From: a virus
IMG/VR virus record: IMGVR_UViG_3300027881_000074
Span: 1 to 24,217 of that record
Strand: one strand, 5' to 3'
DNA length: 24,217 bases
The notes below the pieces were generated by a model. That model saw only the letters and a program-made list of their open reading frames with translations, was not told the origin of the DNA and did no database searches. Position 1 is the stretch's first letter. Every line of letters starts with the position of its first letter. This document shows, in pieces, positions 175 to 23,845 of this stretch. Made by a program: the position numbers and the translations under genes.

Positions 175-462
175 ATGTCCAAATCTAAAAAACCACAATT
201 ATTATTTGCAGCCATTGATTTAGCTGAAGCATATGGGTATAAAAATATCACCCGGGAAATGATTGCAAAAAAAACTGGTGTTGCCACAGGTACGGTTAAT
301 CTGTATTTCGGCACCATGCATAAACTTAAAAAAACTATCATCAGACATGCATTAAGAACGGGTAATAATAGAATCATCGCACAGGCAATTTTGAATGACG
401 ATGACCTAGTTTGTAACCTAACTGTTGATGAGAGAAAGACTGCACTACTGGCAGTGGCATGA
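175..462 (+). CDS. TetR-type helix-turn-helix DNA-binding protein, small
   Basis: A 95-residue protein whose first 60 residues match the N-terminal DNA-binding domain of TetR regulators. A first helix (about 8-20) is followed by ITREMIAKKTGVATGT and VNLYFGTMHKL, the usual helix-turn-helix (about 26-45) and Y-F-G recognition region. A normal TetR protein has a 120-150 residue ligand-binding and dimerisation domain after this; here only about 35 residues follow, so no inducer pocket is expected. AGGTAGAG precedes the ATG. Its stop overlaps the primase-helicase start by 4 bp, so the two are probably translationally coupled and may be co-regulated. Inferred role: phage transcriptional regulator, target unknown. 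It is also more A+T rich than its neighbours. Confidence 0.85.
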   Translation: MSKSKKPQLLFAAIDLAEAYGYKNITREMIAKKTGVATGTVNLYFGTMHKLKKTIIRHALRTGNNRIIAQAILNDDDLVCNLTVDERKTALLAVA

Positions 463-2762: not shown

Positions 2763-2995
2763 ATGAGCGAAAAAAGATAGCACGTAGAAAACAGCGCAAG
2801 ACTGCATCTAATAAACCAGTTAAAAAGGGCTGGATCGTGATGGATGAATACGAGAAATTTATCACCAAGATGACCAACTGGCAGAACAGCCAGTGGTTAA
2901 GGGCAGGGAAGGTTCGCAGTGAAGCTGACTCTTTCGCAAACATGTTTGCTGCTAAATTGGCATCACCCTATACGATCAAGCGACTGACTCCATGA
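2759..2995 (+). CDS. Small basic hypothetical protein
   Basis: A 78-residue protein with a strongly basic N-terminus (RKKIARRKQRKTASNK) followed by a probably helical second half. The ATG overlaps the primase-helicase stop by 4 bp, and its own stop overlaps the next start by 4 bp, so it is part of the replication operon. The basic tail suggests nucleic-acid or protein binding, but I recognise no family. An in-frame ATG at residue 28 (MDEYEKF) is a possible alternative start; the 4 bp coupling favours the longer form. Confidence 0.7.
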   Translation: MNERKKIARRKQRKTASNKPVKKGWIVMDEYEKFITKMTNWQNSQWLRAGKVRSEADSFANMFAAKLASPYTIKRLTP

Positions 2996-3207
2996 CCTGT
3001 GGTCATAAACTAAACAGGGTCATAGACTCCCGCAAAAAACCATACGGTACATTCAGAAGAAGGGAGTGTACTAAATGTGGTAATCGGTTCACTACCATCG
3101 AGATCGAGGTGGCTGATCTCAGACATGGTGAATCAGCGTTTCATGCAACAAAAAGAAATTTATTATCGGGTATGTTAATTGAAATGGGGGAAGCTATGAA
3201 AAAATAA
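2992..3207 (+). CDS. NrdR-like zinc-ribbon protein
   Basis: A 71-residue protein whose N-terminal half resembles the zinc ribbon of the ribonucleotide-reductase repressor NrdR: VIDSRKKPYGTFRRRECTKC, then GNRFTTIE. C26 and C29 form one clear CxxC knuckle. The other half is unusual: NrdR has CPxCG at its start, but here only C3-G-H5 is present, so the fourth zinc ligand may be H5 or missing. The ATP-cone domain of real NrdR is absent and only about 30 unrelated residues follow. Probably a small phage nucleic-acid-binding or regulatory protein, last gene of the primase operon. Control of ribonucleotide reductase would be speculation. Confidence 0.8.
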   Translation: MTCGHKLNRVIDSRKKPYGTFRRRECTKCGNRFTTIEIEVADLRHGESAFHATKRNLLSGMLIEMGEAMKK

Positions 3208-7637: not shown

Positions 7638-7959
7638 ATTTGTCGTTGTAAACTTCCTGTTACTGATAATGACTTTTATATGGGTCATGAAGCTACGTGA
7701 TCTGGTGGAAGGAACTTGGCTTGAGAAACCATTGAGAATTATCGTTGGCATTCCTGCCTTTATTTTCGACTGGTATGTGAATACGTTTGCCGCAACCATC
7801 CTGTTTCTTGAACTACCTTATGGATGGGAGGTGGTGACTGGTCGGTTGAAACGGTATAAGAAATACACTGGTCATCTCAGTTGGATTAAGAGATGGCGAT
7901 TGGGATGGGCTGTTCATCTCTGTGCTCTAGCTCATCGATTTGATAAAGGTCATTGTTGA
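7630..7959 (+). CDS. Phage membrane protein, two predicted transmembrane segments
   Basis: A 109-residue protein starting at ATG 7630, behind GAGGTG (7619-7624). An open frame extends upstream, but the ribosome site and hydrophobic start favour this ATG. Residues 2-17 (IEFVVVNFLLLIMTFI) and about 38-58 (IIVGIPAFIFDWYVNTFAAT) are hydrophobic. The remainder is basic and aromatic (HLSWIKRWRLGWAVHLC) and likely cytoplasmic. It resembles phage membrane proteins annotated only as hypothetical. It sits at the end of the accessory cluster. Confidence 0.75.
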   Translation: MIEFVVVNFLLLIMTFIWVMKLRDLVEGTWLEKPLRIIVGIPAFIFDWYVNTFAATILFLELPYGWEVVTGRLKRYKKYTGHLSWIKRWRLGWAVHLCALAHRFDKGHC

Positions 7960-7960
7960 G

Positions 7961-8101
7961 ATGACTGATTTTGAGATGAAGTTGGCTATCGTGTTGAGCG
8001 AATATAAAGAAGGTCTCATCGATGACGTTCATATCATCGCTGACATTCAACGACTCATCGCTGATCAACTCAAAAATACCCTTGAAATACCCTTAACCTG
8101 A
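7961..8101 (+). CDS. Possible 46-residue protein
   Basis: A short ORF starting one base after the previous stop. The peptide looks like an ordinary small helical protein (YKEGLIDDVHIIADIQRLIA). The ribosome site is weak, and its last codons overlap the terminator stem and the first TACCCT repeats. Translational reinitiation from the previous gene is possible. No family recognised. Confidence 0.5.
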   Translation: MTDFEMKLAIVLSEYKEGLIDDVHIIADIQRLIADQLKNTLEIPLT

Positions 8102-8120
8102 ACAAGTCGAGGGTATTTTT
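8072..8120 (+). terminator. Terminator-like hairpin ending the accessory operon
   Basis: AAAAATACCCT (8072-8082) pairs with AGGGTATTTTT (8110-8120). Two or three more pairs extend the stem inward, with a loop of about 21 bases. A second TACCCT at 8088-8093 could pair with the same arm in a shorter hairpin. The T-run is part of the stem, as in bidirectional terminators. It is placed exactly where the small-gene operon ends. Confidence 0.6.
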
Positions 8121-8141
8121 AAGTCCTTGATTTTAAAGGCT

Positions 8142-8349
8142 TACCCCGAGTACCCCGCAATACCCTTGACTTTCTCCCTACCCCCATATCTCACGCGCCA
8201 TCTCGTGCGCTCATCTCATCTCATCTTTAAATATGTATATATATTATATTGAATAATTATATATATTAAAGGGTGTTAAGGGTAAACATTGATTTGTAAG
8301 GGAAAAGTACAGGGTAATGTTGTGGGTATTTATGGGGTATCGTGGGTAA
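8142..8349. other. Candidate replication origin or control region: inverted iterons around an A+T-rich core
   Basis: A non-coding stretch between 8102 and 8358. TACCC occurs at 8142, 8151, 8161 and 8179; the reverse form GGGTA occurs at 8280, 8312, 8324, 8335 and 8344. Spacing is mostly 9-12 bp, close to one helical turn. The two outer trios match each other as TTACCC-TACCC-TACCC and its complement. Their centre (about 8245) coincides with an A+T core at 8226-8270, in which only 2 of 45 bases are G or C. CATCT is tandemly repeated at 8212-8227. Iterons plus an easily melted core is the usual design of a replication origin; binding by a phage regulator is the main alternative. Confidence 0.5.
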
Positions 8350-8358
8350 TTTGCAATT

Positions 8359-9105: not shown

Positions 9106-10486
9106 GGTAGTAGCACCGGTAGCACCACCATTTCAGATTACCAAAGCTCAAGATCGTGCCCGGGACATGCTCATCAGCGATGCCATTCATTGTGCTCTAG
9201 GTGGTGGTGCACGATCAGGTAAAACATTTCTATTGATCCGACAAGTAGTGATGAGGGCAGTCAGGGCACCCGGTTCGCGTCATGCTGTCTTCCGCTTCCG
9301 ATTTAATGCCCTCAAGCAGTCTGTGGTGCTCGATACACTCCCCAAAGTACTGAAGCTATGCTTCCCCCACCTAACCTACAAGCTCAATAAAACAGACTGG
9401 TTTCTGACCATTTACCATGATGATGGTGAGCACAGTGAGATATGGTTTGGTGGGTTGGATGATAAGGAGCGAACAGAGAAGATATTGGGCATGGAGTTTG
9501 CCACGATCTATTTCAACGAATGCAGCCAGATACCATACGCTTCAGTCATACTAGCCTTGACTCGTTTAGCCCAGAAGACCAAGAATTTAAGCCTGAAGGT
9601 GTATTACGACTTTAACCCACCATCCAAGATGCACTGGACCTATCTACTCTTTGTCGAGCGTAAGAATCCAATGGACAAGGTGCAGGTGCCTGAGCCGATG
9701 AAGTACGGGTTGTACATGATCAACCCGGCTGACAACATCGAGAACCTAGACCCCGAGTATATTTCCTTCCTCAAAGCTCTACCCGAAGCAGCCCGGAGAA
9801 GATTCCTGCATGGTCAGTTCGCTGATGATAGTGAGGGTGCGTTGTGGACTGTTGAACTGCTGGCTCAGAACAGGGTGCTTGGTCAAGTTGGTTCCCTACC
9901 TGATTTCCTGAGAATATCTGTTAACGTTGACCCCAGTGGTTGTAGTGGTCCCGAGGATCAGAGATCGGATAAGATCGGCATTACTGTCACTGCTCTGGGC
10001 ACCAATGGTCATGGTTACCTGCTTGAAGATTTAAGTGGACACTACAAGCCCGAAACGTGGGGTAAGATCGCTGTAGATGCATACGAGCGGCACAGTGCTG
10101 ACATGGTTGTTGCCGAGACCAACTACGGTGGCGATATGGTTCGTGCCGTGATTCAAGCTCAAGACCCTAACATACCATTCCAATGTGTCACGGCTACCCG
10201 CGGCAAGGTCATCAGGGCTGAACCGATATCCAGCCTGTACGAACAGAATAAGATACATCACGTTGGTCACTTTCCTGAACTTGAAGATCAGTTATGTGCC
10301 ATGCTACAGTCCGGGTATGTCGGTATCACGTCACCAGATGCTGCTGACAGTGCGATCTGGGGATTCACATTCTTGTATCCGAAGCTAACCAAGAGGGCTG
10401 AGATGGGTCATTTCACACCACCACACACCAACCTGTCATCACGATCAGCCAGTGAGCGTGAGAAGCGTCGAATGCGGAGGATGTAA
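9092..10486 (+). CDS. terL: Terminase large subunit (packaging ATPase and nuclease)
   Basis: A 464-residue DNA-packaging motor. ATPase domain: Walker A GGGARSGKT (37-45), Walker B-like ATIYFNE with E143, and a coupling region ALTRLAQK. The C-terminal RNase H-like nuclease domain shows D280 in SVNVDPSG, E342 in VVAETNYGG and D419 in SPDAADSAIWG, the expected three acidic residues. It cuts concatemers and pumps DNA into the head through the portal. I chose the ATG at 9092 because GGATGAGA precedes it; ATG 9083 is possible. The frame stays open to 9020, but those codons overlap the small subunit and lack family resemblance. Confidence 0.95.
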   Translation: MHSAEVVAPVAPPFQITKAQDRARDMLISDAIHCALGGGARSGKTFLLIRQVVMRAVRAPGSRHAVFRFRFNALKQSVVLDTLPKVLKLCFPHLTYKLNKTDWFLTIYHDDGEHSEIWFGGLDDKERTEKILGMEFATIYFNECSQIPYASVILALTRLAQKTKNLSLKVYYDFNPPSKMHWTYLLFVERKNPMDKVQVPEPMKYGLYMINPADNIENLDPEYISFLKALPEAARRRFLHGQFADDSEGALWTVELLAQNRVLGQVGSLPDFLRISVNVDPSGCSGPEDQRSDKIGITVTALGTNGHGYLLEDLSGHYKPETWGKIAVDAYERHSADMVVAETNYGGDMVRAVIQAQDPNIPFQCVTATRGKVIRAEPISSLYEQNKIHHVGHFPELEDQLCAMLQSGYVGITSPDAADSAIWGFTFLYPKLTKRAEMGHFTPPHTNLSSRSASEREKRRMRRM

Positions 10487-11086
10487 ATGAAGGAAGCAAA
10501 CAGGAGGCAAACCCTTGAATCACTTGAGTATGATATGCGCCTCAACTTCACCCTGTTCAAGATCAACCACACCCTCAAATTGTTGACCGTCCTTCGTGAG
10601 ATCAATCAGAACGATGAGTTCTTCGGTATAAACCGGATCAGGCAGTATGCAGGGTCAGCACATACCGAGGTCGATGATATCCTGTTGCGAGGTCCACCAC
10701 TATCGATGGGGTTGACGATGATGGAACTGATGAACGCTATCGATTGCGAGTGGTACCAGTCAGTCAACATGTTCCCCGAGACCTACGAGATGGTCAGTTG
10801 GATCACCCACTATCTAGGGTGTAAAAAGTTAGGACGTGTGATTATCACCAAGCTGGCACCGGGTGGGGTGATCTATCCTCACATTGATGAGGGTGAAGTT
10901 CCTAAAGTATATGAACGATTCCACTACGTGATTCAAGGCACTTCGGGCAATATATTCACCATCGATGGTCGCCAACAGGAGATGAGGACCGGGCAGCTAT
11001 GGAAAGTGAACGTCAGGAAAGAACATAGTGTTGTCAACCAGAGTGATCGCGACCGAATCCACCTGATCATGGACGTGGTGGCATGA
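10487..11086 (+). CDS. Aspartyl/asparaginyl beta-hydroxylase-like 2-oxoglutarate/Fe(II) oxygenase
   Basis: A 199-residue protein whose C-terminal half is a double-stranded beta-helix oxygenase. H132-I-D134 (in VIYPHIDEG) and H180 (in VRKEHSVVN) form the iron-binding HxD...H triad, and R190 (DRDRIHLIMD) is placed to bind 2-oxoglutarate. The pattern HSVVNQSDRDRIHLIMD is typical of the Asp/Asn beta-hydroxylase family. The animal enzyme lacks the metal-binding Asp, but bacterial and phage members often have it. Substrate unknown: virion protein, host protein or nucleic acid. It starts immediately after the terL stop, behind GGAGG, and overlaps the GNAT gene by 4 bp, so the pair is co-expressed with packaging genes. 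Confidence 0.85.
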   Translation: MKEANRRQTLESLEYDMRLNFTLFKINHTLKLLTVLREINQNDEFFGINRIRQYAGSAHTEVDDILLRGPPLSMGLTMMELMNAIDCEWYQSVNMFPETYEMVSWITHYLGCKKLGRVIITKLAPGGVIYPHIDEGEVPKVYERFHYVIQGTSGNIFTIDGRQQEMRTGQLWKVNVRKEHSVVNQSDRDRIHLIMDVVA

Positions 11087-11532
11087 AATATCAGGTTGAA
11101 ACAGTGCAGGAATGTTTGATCGATATGGCTGATCTTCACGAGATGCACTACGCTGAGATCAGCACACACAAAGAACTAAAAAAACTTAAACCTGATTATG
11201 ATGCCTATTTGGAACTAGAGCTTAATGGCAACTTGCGGGTGATGACCGTCCGTGAAGACAACAACATGATCGGTTACTGTGTTACATTCATCCAACCGCA
11301 CATCCACTACATTGACTGCACGTATGCGCTCAATGACATCCTGTTTATCCACCCAGATCATCGAGGTGGGACCGTGGGGTACCGGCTGATCAAGGAAGCT
11401 ATACGGGATTTGAAGGAGAACACTGATGCGAATATACTTTGCATTCACATGAAGGTGAAGTATCCTTTTCGTAATTTACTGGCAAAATTTGGTTTTCAAT
11501 TAACTGAAGAAAACTGGGAGGTTGAACTGTAA
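11083..11532 (+). CDS. GNAT-family N-acetyltransferase
   Basis: A 149-residue protein with the GNAT fold. The acetyl-CoA-binding motif A is NDILFIHPDHRGGTVG, with the R94-G-G-x-x-G99 pyrophosphate loop, followed by the helix YRLIKEAIRDL. Then come a beta strand (ILCIHMKV) and the usual C-terminal segment LLAKFGFQLTEENW. The substrate is not visible; it could be a virion or host protein amine or a small molecule. ATGA coupling to the oxygenase upstream and TAATG coupling to the following structural-type gene place it firmly in the late operon. Confidence 0.85.
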   Translation: MKYQVETVQECLIDMADLHEMHYAEISTHKELKKLKPDYDAYLELELNGNLRVMTVREDNNMIGYCVTFIQPHIHYIDCTYALNDILFIHPDHRGGTVGYRLIKEAIRDLKENTDANILCIHMKVKYPFRNLLAKFGFQLTEENWEVEL

Positions 11533-12492: not shown

Positions 12493-14073
12493 ATGGACAT
12501 TACACAACTGAAACAATTTGCCGATGCGCGATTCCAAGATCAACAGCGGGTCATTCATCTCTGGCAGATACTAGCTGAGAATTTCTACCCGGAACGGTCT
12601 GACTTTACCCTGAGCCACGGTCTGGGGGATGAACTAGCCGATGGTCTCGCTAATTCCCAACCTATCCTAATCAGACGTGAGCTTGGCAACAGCTTCAGTG
12701 CAATGCTGAGGGATGGCAAGTGGTTCGACATTACCACAGAGGAAGACCCTAGCCATCTGGCTAAGAAGTGGTTAGAGTTTGGATCGGATCGGCTGCTGAA
12801 GTTGATGGAGCATCGATCAGCTAACTTCCGTCGAGCAACCAAAGAAGGCGACCATGACTATGCCACGTTCGGGCAGAATGTCTTATCCATTGAACCCAAC
12901 AAAATGCGGAACGGTTTGCTATTCAGAACATGGCACTTGCGTGACTGTGCATGGTGGGATAACGATGAGGGTGCGGTGGCAGGAGTAGTACGCCGATGGA
13001 AACCGAAAGTACATGAGCTATTGACCTATTTCGGCAAGGACAAACTGCATGAGAATGTCGTCAAGGATCATCACAAAAAGATGTTTCAGGATGTTGAAAT
13101 TATTCACTTCGATGTACCCTCAACCATGTTTCACTTCGATGATAAAGAGCTTGAGAAGTTTGAGTTCGTAAGTCTGTTCCTTGATGTCAAAAACAACCAT
13201 ATTATCGACAAGGTGGGCAAACGATTTAGAACATATGTGGTGCCGAGATTCCAGACAATCGCAGGCAGTCCGTATGCATATAGCCCCGCAACGGTGGTCG
13301 GGCTACCCGATGCCAGAACCCTACAGGCGATGACTCATACTTTACTGGAAGCTGGCGAACGTCATGCCCGACCACCTATTATCGCCACAGAGAACGTTAT
13401 CCGCGGTGATGCCAATCTTTACCCTGATGGAATTACCTACGTGTCAGAAGACTATGACGAACGTCTGGGTGCAGCCATGAGACCACTGGCGCAAGATGCC
13501 AAAGGATTCCCGCTTGGTGTGGATATGGCTGCTGGTATTGTCGAGATTCTTCAATCAGCATTCTACGTTAATAAAATCGATCTGCCCGACAAGGGTGCAG
13601 AGATGACAGCGTATGAGTTTTCTGAGCGTATGAAGCAATACAGGCGACAGAATCTGCCACTATTTGCACCACTTGAGCACGAGTACAACGGTCAGATATG
13701 TGAGCAGTCATTCAATATCGCCATGGAATTTAACATGTTCGGATCACCTGCTGATATCCCACAGGAACTGGCAGGGAAAGAGGTCATCTTCAAGTTCCAA
13801 TCACCACTGACTGAAAGCGAGGAAGAACAGAAGGTTCAGTTGTTTGCTCAGGTTTCAGACATGGTAGCTAAGGCTGCTGAGTTTGATCAAGGTGTTGCAT
13901 TGAATGTTGATTTCGGTGAAGCATTACGTGATTCAATCCAAGGTATTGGTGCCCCGGCTAAATGGTTGGATGAGGTCGAGACTGTTAAACGCAAGCAAGA
14001 TGCAATGGAAGAACAGCAAGCAGCGATGGCACAGCAACAGATGGCTGCTGAACAAGCTGGCGCGGCTGCATGA
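12493..14073 (+). CDS. Portal / head-tail connector protein (T7 gp8-like)
   Basis: A 526-residue protein, close to the 536 residues of T7 gp8, matching the head-to-tail connecting family. Recognisable blocks: the start LKQFADARFQDQQRVIHLWQ; LAENFYPERSDFTL; the RRELGNSFSAMLRDGKWFD stem region; DHDYATFGQNVLSIEP; and the late DLPDKGAEMTAYEFSERM block. The last 40 residues are Gln/Ala/Glu-rich. Twelve copies form the ring through which DNA enters and leaves the head and to which tail proteins attach. GGAGG precedes the ATG. The stop overlaps the next start by ATGA. Confidence 0.92.
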   Translation: MDITQLKQFADARFQDQQRVIHLWQILAENFYPERSDFTLSHGLGDELADGLANSQPILIRRELGNSFSAMLRDGKWFDITTEEDPSHLAKKWLEFGSDRLLKLMEHRSANFRRATKEGDHDYATFGQNVLSIEPNKMRNGLLFRTWHLRDCAWWDNDEGAVAGVVRRWKPKVHELLTYFGKDKLHENVVKDHHKKMFQDVEIIHFDVPSTMFHFDDKELEKFEFVSLFLDVKNNHIIDKVGKRFRTYVVPRFQTIAGSPYAYSPATVVGLPDARTLQAMTHTLLEAGERHARPPIIATENVIRGDANLYPDGITYVSEDYDERLGAAMRPLAQDAKGFPLGVDMAAGIVEILQSAFYVNKIDLPDKGAEMTAYEFSERMKQYRRQNLPLFAPLEHEYNGQICEQSFNIAMEFNMFGSPADIPQELAGKEVIFKFQSPLTESEEEQKVQLFAQVSDMVAKAAEFDQGVALNVDFGEALRDSIQGIGAPAKWLDEVETVKRKQDAMEEQQAAMAQQQMAAEQAGAAA

Positions 14074-21965: not shown

Positions 21966-23845
21966 TGGCTGCTGTAATCCCAGATGCCAAAGCCCTGAAC
22001 TTACCGCAATACTCAGGACAGGGTACCGTATACAACGCGCCCGGTGTTAAACCCGCGGAAGGACCAAATGCAATGGGTGTTCTTGCTGGTGCGGTTGAAG
22101 AAGAATACAAGAAACAGCAGCTTGAAGAATTGGCTGATGCCAAGCTCCAACTCCAACTCGGTCGCGTACAACAGGACAACGCATATAACCAAGATGAGCA
22201 AGTGGACACCATCGAGGAAAGGTGGCAAGGGAAAATGACTGAACATCTGGGCAATGCTGCTATGAACATCAGCGAAGGTGAACTTCGTGAGGCTTTCGTT
22301 CAGGAAAGTCAGGCATCACTTGCACAAGGGCAGATGGCTATAAAGCAGCTTGCTTTCACCAAAAAATCAGATCAGCAAATGGCGGCACTTGCTACAGCCG
22401 CGGATATTATTATGAAGGGTGCGGTCCTACCCGGTGGTGATGTTGTTAAAGGGTTTGAAGCTATTGAGATGAAGTACGCATCTGCTGCTACACAGGGATA
22501 TACCAGTCAGGAAAATGCCGCAATACAGGTCATGGCTGTGAAGTATGCAATTGCCGAGGGTAAGATTAAAGGCTTGCCACCCCGGGCACAGATTGATGCG
22601 CTGAAGGAACCGTGGGCTATGGAGTTGCCCAACCATATCCGGGTGAAGCTGAGGTTGGAAGCTGAGGAAGAATTGTTACTGGGTGATGCTCAGGCTGCTG
22701 CCTATATGGGAATACAGAAAGAGTGGACCACTCAGCAAATGGATGATTATCTATTTACTACACCAGAGTTTACCAGTGATCCGAAGTTGTTGAATTTTAC
22801 CCAACAACAATTTTCTGCACTTAAAAGAAACAGGCTAAGTTCCAAGATGGAAGTCTCTACAGAATTATTTGACAGTTATGCTGAGAGAATTATTGATGGT
22901 GCCCGGGATGGTAGTTTTAACACCAAAGTTCTGATGTCGGAAAACAGGGACGATTGGAAGCGAATGGATACAGGAATGAAGAAGGCATTGATGGCTCTTG
23001 AGGATGATGTTCAGAATGGTAATCGTCGTTTGCATACTGATCGTGCAGTTCTTAATAACCTGTTTGCTTTATATGGTGATCCCGACAAGCGGCTGGAAAC
23101 GAAAGAATACTTCTATGCTAATTTCGATAAACTGAACGCATCTGACTACGAAGACTGGTTGAAAAAAGTTCATGTGGGCACGGCAAGCTCATTATGGGAT
23201 CACCAAAAACAAGTTGAAAATTCTACCGTTGGTATGGGAGATAGAGAACGCGCTGGTATTTATAATGGGTTGACCAGATGGTATATAAACTTTCAGGAAA
23301 CCCATGCCGATGCTGAACCGAGTGATAAGGATGTAGTAGAAATGATTGACAGCGCGATTAGACAGTTCAGTACAGGTGGGTGGTTTGGTAAAAAATCACC
23401 GTATGATATGACTGACAGTGAGCGGATCAGTGCATATACCGCGGCTGAGACTGATACCGAACGTGCTCAATTGTTAAAGTTTTACACACAGCAAGATAAG
23501 GTCCAAATTGCCTACGGTTATTTCAGGAATCAAGACCGGCAAGTTTTTAATGATGTTGCCCTTGGATTCAAACAACAAGGCAGGGAAATGAACATGCAAA
23601 GTCATTCAGCTTTTGCACGAGAATTTAGGAATCTACTGGAAATTCGAAATAAGAAAAGGATGGAAGAACAAAGTGCATTAGAAGCCGAGCAGCAAAGACT
23701 AGCTGGAACCAATCATGGAATGGCAATTACTCTTGGTATTGATGCCAATGCTGCCAATGCTCCTTTTATCGATAATTCTCATAAGTTCGCTGGTCGAGAA
23801 ACAAACACCCCTAACGACATCCCACCACCGGCACCTAATCTCTAA
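21965..23845 (+). CDS. Internal virion-like helical protein
   Basis: A 626-residue protein, almost all helix, rich in Ala, Gln and Glu, with no signal peptide or transmembrane segment. The start is Pro/Gly-rich (AKALNLPQYSGQGTVYNAPG), then long coiled-coil-like helices (EEEYKKQQLEELADAKLQLQ). A polar tail ends NDIPPPAPNL. It is 626 residues, near the size class of T7 gp15 (747), and lies between the small internal protein and the next large gene, so it fits a DNA-ejection channel component. No enzyme motif seen. Confidence 0.7.
   Translation: MAAVIPDAKALNLPQYSGQGTVYNAPGVKPAEGPNAMGVLAGAVEEEYKKQQLEELADAKLQLQLGRVQQDNAYNQDEQVDTIEERWQGKMTEHLGNAAMNISEGELREAFVQESQASLAQGQMAIKQLAFTKKSDQQMAALATAADIIMKGAVLPGGDVVKGFEAIEMKYASAATQGYTSQENAAIQVMAVKYAIAEGKIKGLPPRAQIDALKEPWAMELPNHIRVKLRLEAEEELLLGDAQAAAYMGIQKEWTTQQMDDYLFTTPEFTSDPKLLNFTQQQFSALKRNRLSSKMEVSTELFDSYAERIIDGARDGSFNTKVLMSENRDDWKRMDTGMKKALMALEDDVQNGNRRLHTDRAVLNNLFALYGDPDKRLETKEYFYANFDKLNASDYEDWLKKVHVGTASSLWDHQKQVENSTVGMGDRERAGIYNGLTRWYINFQETHADAEPSDKDVVEMIDSAIRQFSTGGWFGKKSPYDMTDSERISAYTAAETDTERAQLLKFYTQQDKVQIAYGYFRNQDRQVFNDVALGFKQQGREMNMQSHSAFAREFRNLLEIRNKKRMEEQSALEAEQQRLAGTNHGMAITLGIDANAANAPFIDNSHKFAGRETNTPNDIPPPAPNL

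Follow-up and report, generated by a model that had tools for sequence, protein, structure and literature searches.

The stretch of DNA analysed here, hereafter the window, comes from a podovirus-like phage and comprises the 24,217 bases of a virus record. A small HTH gene is followed by a primase gene, a run of small ORFs, terS, terL, and the genes for the head-tail connector, the major head protein and the tail, with the packaging and structural genes from terS onward lying on the plus strand. Between the run of small ORFs and the packaging genes lies a gap bounded on the left by a 128-aa ORF that ends at 7959 and on the right by an 85-aa ORF before the Terminase_2 gene (8620), and a 53-aa ORF (7940-8101) may narrow it. 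The gap is occupied by two mirror-oriented arrays of a short repeat placed around an A+T core, with a hairpin and an IHF-consensus site alongside (Table 1). Elsewhere the window encodes a 71-aa protein (2992-3207) in which Pfam recognises an NrdR-like zinc ribbon (PF22811) and, between terL and the connector gene, carries a 149-aa acetyltransferase-like gene (11083-11532). Rfam gave no match in the window, and PADLOC gave none for six of its small proteins.

Table 1. Features of the candidate origin and its proposed partners, in positions of the window.
Feature	Position	Strand	Basis
TetR_N-like HTH protein, 95 aa, enzyme companion	175..462	+	Pfam TetR_N
NrS-1-type primase-polymerase with DUF5906 helicase domain, 767 aa	459..2762	+	PHROG 1829, Pfam PF22763, PF19263, PDB NrS-1 primase
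Terminator-like hairpin, inverted TACCCT/AGGGTA then T run, carrying iteron-type repeats	8068..8124	+	
IHF-consensus site AATCAAGGACTTA, left flank	8120..8132	-	consensus match
Left iteron 1 (TACCC)	8142..8146	-	repeat count
Left iteron 2 (TACCC)	8151..8155	-	repeat count
Left iteron 3 (TACCC)	8161..8165	-	repeat count
Left iteron 4 (TACCC)	8179..8183	-	repeat count
A+T core, candidate DNA unwinding element	8226..8270	.	43/45 A/T
Degenerate right iteron GGGTG, core edge	8271..8275	+	like the core-edge iteron pair of relatives
Right iteron 1 (GGGTA)	8280..8284	+	repeat count
Right iteron 2 (GGGTA)	8312..8316	+	repeat count
Right iteron 3 (GGGTA)	8324..8328	+	repeat count
Right iteron 4 (GGGTA)	8335..8339	+	repeat count
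Right iteron 5 (GGGTA)	8344..8348	+	repeat count

The repeats follow one another at intervals of 9, 10 and 18 bp in the left arm and of 32, 12, 11 and 9 bp in the right arm. Nine copies of TACCC or GGGTA within 208 bp are beyond chance: when the window was modelled by 500 first-order Markov sequences, the densest 208 bp contained two or three copies in 440 of them and never more than six. At the core, which stands between the mirror-oriented arms, the strand passes from C-rich to G-rich more sharply than anywhere else in the window, with a score of 56 at 8247 against 43 for the next-best switch more than 300 bp away. C outnumbers G by 39 to 9 in the left arm (8140-8226), and G outnumbers C by 30 to 4 in the right arm (8271-8358). 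An earlier note on this DNA had described at least four TACCC on the left and five GGGTA on the right in opposite orientation, spaced mostly 9-12 bp apart, a centre of symmetry at about 8245 and a 45-bp segment with two G/C bases. The counts bear this description out, with four and five copies found, five of the seven intervals in that range, the midpoint of the outermost repeats at 8245 and the segment located as the core of Table 1.

Further, the adjoining terminator hairpin, for which two TACCCT and one AGGGTA had been claimed, is real: it folds at -18.1 kcal/mol (z -4.25), runs into a stretch of T and closes the left genes; a simple terminator scan did not have it among its predictions. 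The hairpin, together with the position before the structural genes, would be in keeping with a transcriptional control region that combines the terminator of the left genes with repressor or activator sites for the late operon. However, sigma-70-like sites are not enriched, repression needs no long A+T core with mirror arrays, and phage JD001 has a second, inverted copy of the element elsewhere in its genome, so that such a role appears improbable. The regulatory hub that the earlier note had offered as its alternative gains no support from the promoter scan and was set aside as an unlikely though conceivable reading, promoter-like sites being fewer than expected (one against 2.6). The IHF consensus WATCAANNNNTTR is matched twice in the window against 1.34 matches expected, once in the left flank of the element.

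Conservation of the layout was followed through a set of 80 TerL loci, in which the loci named here were read by eye, alongside an automatic scan. The same layout is present upstream of terS in L002, L003, L004, L009, L015, L033, L034, L035 and L038. In L002, whose TerL is 86% identical to that of the window, C-rich repeats, CTCATCTCATCTCA, an A+T core and GGGTA repeats are found, with AATCAATGACTTA on both flanks in mirror orientation, while only the right arm is seen in L003, the record of which starts within a ladder of four GGGTA. The repeats of L004, L033, L034, L035 and L038 are GGGGTA, TACGGGC, GGGTA, GGGGTA and GGGAGTAG-like, respectively. In L009 and L015 (41%) the core is flanked by GTCTACTT / AAGTAGAC, and L005 combines an A+T core with weaker, CTCAA-type repeats. 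The element was absent from the stretches read in L007 and L008, from the 351 bp read upstream of TerL in the TerL relative Ssp-JY42, and from the 600-750 bp, ending about 330 bp before TerL, that were read in L036, L037, L039, L040 and L041 (TerL 65-68% identical).

Moreover, the element is found in phages related to the window through the replication enzyme. The primase-polymerases of JD001, Scuro, SppYZU01 and Stenotrophomonas B2 are 43-46% identical to that of the window, whereas BLASTP gave no match better than E 0.2 to the window for the TerL of these four phages or for the TerS of JD001 and B2. All four carry an A+T core with outward TACCC/GGGTA-type repeats, beside terS or upstream of terL; in B2 the repeats are ACTTGGGTACTTGGGG, and the right arm of Scuro holds only one perfect GGGGTA. 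PVN06 has GGGGTATTAAGGGTA at the end of a record whose first gene is terS, and in Vibrio 1.111.B, where the enzyme matches in its helicase part only, ATTCCCT / AGGGAAT arrays surround an A+T core. Overall, six of the eight named phages read have the element; HMSP1-Susan and Milano have the enzyme, and no element was found in the 50,000 of 51,963 b and the 50,000 of 68,531 b read, respectively. The comparison with relatives that had been proposed as a check on the element thus finds its layout recurring both among terminase relatives and among phages with the enzyme in common but no detectable terminase similarity.

Klebsiella phage JD001 (L024) contains two inverted copies of the element, at about 9455-9850 and 22924-23335, some 13.5 kb apart. 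By blastn, 71 phage records match the element at 160 places altogether, so that genomes with several copies seem to be the usual case in that group.

These comparisons also bear on packaging. The position beside terS is one where packaging sites lie as well, which counts against an origin, and repeats with an IHF site upstream of terS resemble the arrangement of lambda cosB. The element could accordingly be the site (pac or cos) at which packaging begins, with the small terminase, whose gene follows immediately downstream, binding to it, as would be suggested by its adjoining terS in the window and in many relatives and by the presence of IHF-consensus sites. However, GGGTA-type iterons are common to phages for which BLASTP detects no similarity in TerL (four compared) or TerS (two compared), the relatives L036, L037, L039, L040 and L041 listed above share TerL at 65-68% and show no element in the stretches read, and the iteron type goes partly with a motif of the primase-polymerase. 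Several contigs, too, continue straight through the element, which a fixed cos end would discourage. Judged by these sequences, the element tracks the replication enzyme better than the terminase, and this forms the main argument against a packaging site, which was set aside as the main explanation and to which we give little probability.

A wider view was sought in 80 enzyme loci drawn from IMG/VR by an alignment query, a single primase-polymerase sequence as the IMG/VR query having found nothing. The element is often out of reach in these loci because they extend only up to 10 kb per side around the enzyme. A TACCC/core/GGGTA score of at least 4 was reached in 16 of the 80 and in none of 160 Markov copies. 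The enzyme loci provided 26 candidate stretches, about 20 of them judged clear by eye, with L131, L181 (at 7136), L184 and L188 judged unclear. A generic detector of inverted k-mers found the window and L015 and ranked many coding repeats equally high, and this poor ranking led to reliance on reading sequences, a fixed motif and a pattern scan. The automatic core finder settled on another place than the eye in L161 and L190 (clearly) and in L170 (shifted), and also in L015 in a later count.

The pattern scan used the right arm, as GGGGTA-N1-5-GGGGTA-N15-45-ATCAANNNNTTA, and matched 68 stretches in 65 contigs, compared with 18 for a control pattern in which GGGGAT replaces GGGGTA. Association with the enzyme was assessed on contigs of at least 13 kb (41 with the pattern, 16 with the control): DUF5906 passed the cut-off in 22 of the 41 and in none of the 16 (Fisher p 1.3e-4). 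The pattern had been composed after reading primase loci, and the primase scan had already turned up 10 of the 22 contigs. Excluding those 10, the proportions are 12/31 and 0/16 (p 0.004). Two sub-threshold DUF5906 matches occur among the control contigs. DUF5906 is found in 12 of the 14 pattern contigs longer than 40 kb, and the NrS-1 HBD in 20 of the 41. No DUF5906 match was obtained in 19 of the 41, two of them above 40 kb, and some of the pattern matches that lack the enzyme have the look of chance occurrences or of a different repeat family.

Some matches of the scan are worth describing for themselves. In L201, L214 and L241 the pattern falls on GGCGCGAAAATTT...GGGGTA...AATCAACAACTTA, a recurrent sequence that lacks a strong A+T core; L241 is a 48-kb contig with no DUF5906 match, so that the recurrent sequence may be another kind of element. 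The 13,618-b contig L222 has an exact 123-bp terminal repeat that contains the right arm (50-96 and 13545-13591), and the same sample yielded a primase-polymerase contig of 34,750 b in which the 62-bp arm is also present (L216, 45-91). Either the assembler may have broken a genome at repeated origins to give L222, or L222 may be a small replicon with the same origin.

Of 33 loci, picked by core and repeats with the site already noticed in some beforehand, 23 have an IHF-consensus site (WATCARNNNNTTR) no more than 200 bp from the core; the corresponding rate is 3.9% for randomly chosen places and 6.4% for other places rich in A+T. The strict consensus is absent near 10 of the 33 cores, including those of JD001, Scuro, SppYZU01 and B2. 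A right iteron pair and the IHF site were matched together 12 times in 23 loci, with the two members 3 bp apart in eight of these matches and the IHF site following 19-21 bp after the pair in ten.

The window enzyme matches the NrS-1 primase in PDB at E 1e-20 and contains the Pfam domains NrS-1 HBD and DUF5906, and the best Foldseek match of its model (pLDDT 87.4, pTM 0.55) is the NrS-1 C-terminal region 6k9c. The modelled C-terminal part has helices at 656-666, 679-688 and 696-705 and strands to 734, and residues from about 656 to 734 are probably a winged helix. The element lies about 5.4 kb downstream of the enzyme gene in the window and less than 1 kb from it only in some relatives (L005, L149 and L181). 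As described in PMC8718748, primase-polymerases of this type can begin DNA chains at specific sequences with no need of a primer, the NrS-1 polymerase doing so at TTTGGTTA or GTGG on the template, and the C-terminal region of NrS-1 is ring-shaped according to PMC7102993. GTGG was counted 63 times in the right flanks of 25 loci against 29 expected, and CCAC 18 times in the left flanks against 20.

The C-terminal part of the enzyme also contains a motif, GRxNN (residues 717-721), that occurs in all 25 loci classed as GGGTA-type by eye and is missing in all six with clearly different repeats. L009 and L015 have GRATR with AAGTAGAC, L149 has GRMTR with GGCCGGTA, L181 has GRATK with CCGGTAT, L126 has ERMNT and Vibrio 1.111.B has GRL. 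Ten loci are intermediate or mixed: L164, L174 and L179 (GAGGTA) retain GRVNN, L169 and L172 (AAGGTA) have GQVNN, L146 (GTGGTA) has GLVNN, and L167, L183, L185 and B2 carry other motifs, B2 being an exception in that it has GRVHS and yet five outward GGGTA. A less subjective count, with cores chosen by A+T, strand switch and IHF site and not by iteron, found at least four outward GGGTA in 14 of 23 loci with GRxNN and in none of eight without (p 0.0035), at least three in 15/23 and 1/8, and at least two in 19/23 and 3/8. That the iteron type partly follows the C-terminal motif of the enzyme is suggested by this co-variation as a hint and not as proof, because the loci are related. L149 additionally contains, at 12946-13405, an origin-like element in which GGCCGGTA arrays are followed by repeated CCGTTTTCGTCCGTTCGG units.

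A second candidate reader is the small TetR_N-like HTH protein, which could bind the iterons of the origin and recruit the enzyme. In 78 of the 80 IMG/VR primase-polymerase loci a homologue is encoded upstream of the enzyme at a distance of no more than 800 bp, the model is confident (pLDDT 95.6, with Foldseek matches to the TetR family at E 0.009 or weaker), and the GGGTA iterons of B2, in an enzyme context without GRxNN, would suit such a reader. On the other hand, the recognition helix has 20 different sequences among 24 loci classed as GGGTA-type, whereas GRxNN is kept in 25 of 25, and L159 and L164 have identical recognition helices with different iterons (GGGGTA/AAGGTA and GAGGTA, respectively). 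The homologue search, moreover, found none in B2, where a TetR/AcrR is annotated, or in L005. Reading of the iterons by the HTH protein thus seems rather unlikely, while deserving serious attention.

Three traits of an iteron origin are found together in the window, namely repeats beyond chance, an A+T element and a candidate initiator on the same replicon. The proposal of the earlier note that this is a candidate replication origin is supported by the repeats, the core and the recurrence in relatives with the same enzyme. From the sequence, we consider it quite likely that 8120-8348 is a bidirectional origin read by the phage's own primase-polymerase-helicase, and other phages with the same kind of enzyme probably also start copying at such an element. 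Cumulative GC skew, which had been put forward as a check, shows no turn at 8.2 kb in the window. Four complete relatives disagree, SppYZU01 (where it is also the record start) and B2 having a skew extreme close to the element and JD001 and Scuro having none there, and for this inconsistency, together with the missing turn, skew was rejected as origin evidence.

The mirror symmetry, the ring of NrS-1 and the fact that SCCmec Cch2 and SaPI Rep bind iterons through their C-terminal part together suggest a scheme of two-ring loading, core melting and self-priming. Each of the mirror iteron arrays would recruit the enzyme, most likely via its C-terminal, probably winged-helix, domain, and IHF would bend the flank. 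Two helicase rings would then assemble head to head, facing opposite ways, the A+T core would melt, and the same protein would prime both leading strands. In this scheme the binding and melting steps, the loading of the rings, the bidirectional course, the involvement of IHF and any role of the small HTH protein are inferred. It is conceivable, albeit doubtful, that one polypeptide does everything, with the winged helix reading the double-stranded iterons, the ring opening the core and the primase-polymerase priming on single-stranded GGGTA/GTGG, and with the code swapping along with the GRxNN wing. Were this true, a handful of residues in a single protein would determine the origin specificity of a whole phage lineage.

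The candidate origin is conserved and its iteron code can be read, which offers a concrete site in culturable phages (among them JD001-like phages and Shewanella phage SppYZU01), and the code would allow origins to be annotated by sequence in uncultured phages. Within the open-access literature, which lacks most subscription journals, none of the papers listed describes the element in its title or the beginning of its abstract.

Among known systems, the iteron plasmid origins that use IHF (pSC101, R6K and P1) combine iterons, an A+T-rich unwinding element and an IHF bend, as in the window. As a rule, however, iteron plasmids have direct iterons on one side and Rep_3-type initiators, whereas the window has mirror arrays and a primase-polymerase. 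By analogy, the element may be likened to the origins of SaPI and SCCmec. In SaPI the iterons form two sets flanking an A+T region, and a fused primase-helicase initiator goes with short iterons, as in the window. The structure 7ola of the SaPI5 primase-helicase, PriRep, is a Foldseek match to the window enzyme (E 9e-10), and the SaPI enzyme has weak sequence similarity to it (phmmer E 7e-12). The SaPI origin is described as lying directly downstream of rep (PMC7581432), whereas that of the window would lie about 5.4 kb downstream, beside terS. According to the same source, it is the C-terminal domain by which initiator helicases recognise short iterons in SaPI and SCCmec, that of SCCmec Cch2 binding 5-nt iterons (AAGTG), and the partner primase of SCCmec prefers start sites vaguely like the iteron region. 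SCCmec differs in its separate helicase and polymerase and its three iterons, and the accessible description mentions neither mirror symmetry nor an IHF site (PMC7581432). NrS-1, of the same enzyme family as the window's, shares a sequence-specific de novo start (PMC8718748, PMC7102993). It differs in that it is reported to have only two copies of its 8-nt site, proposed as its origin (PMC7102993), and the available parts of both papers mention no iteron arrays (PMC8718748, PMC7102993). Overall, the element would belong to the known kind of iteron origins, and within the open-access literature its novelty lies in the mirror-image arrays, in how the IHF site is spaced and in the association with an NrS-1-type enzyme.
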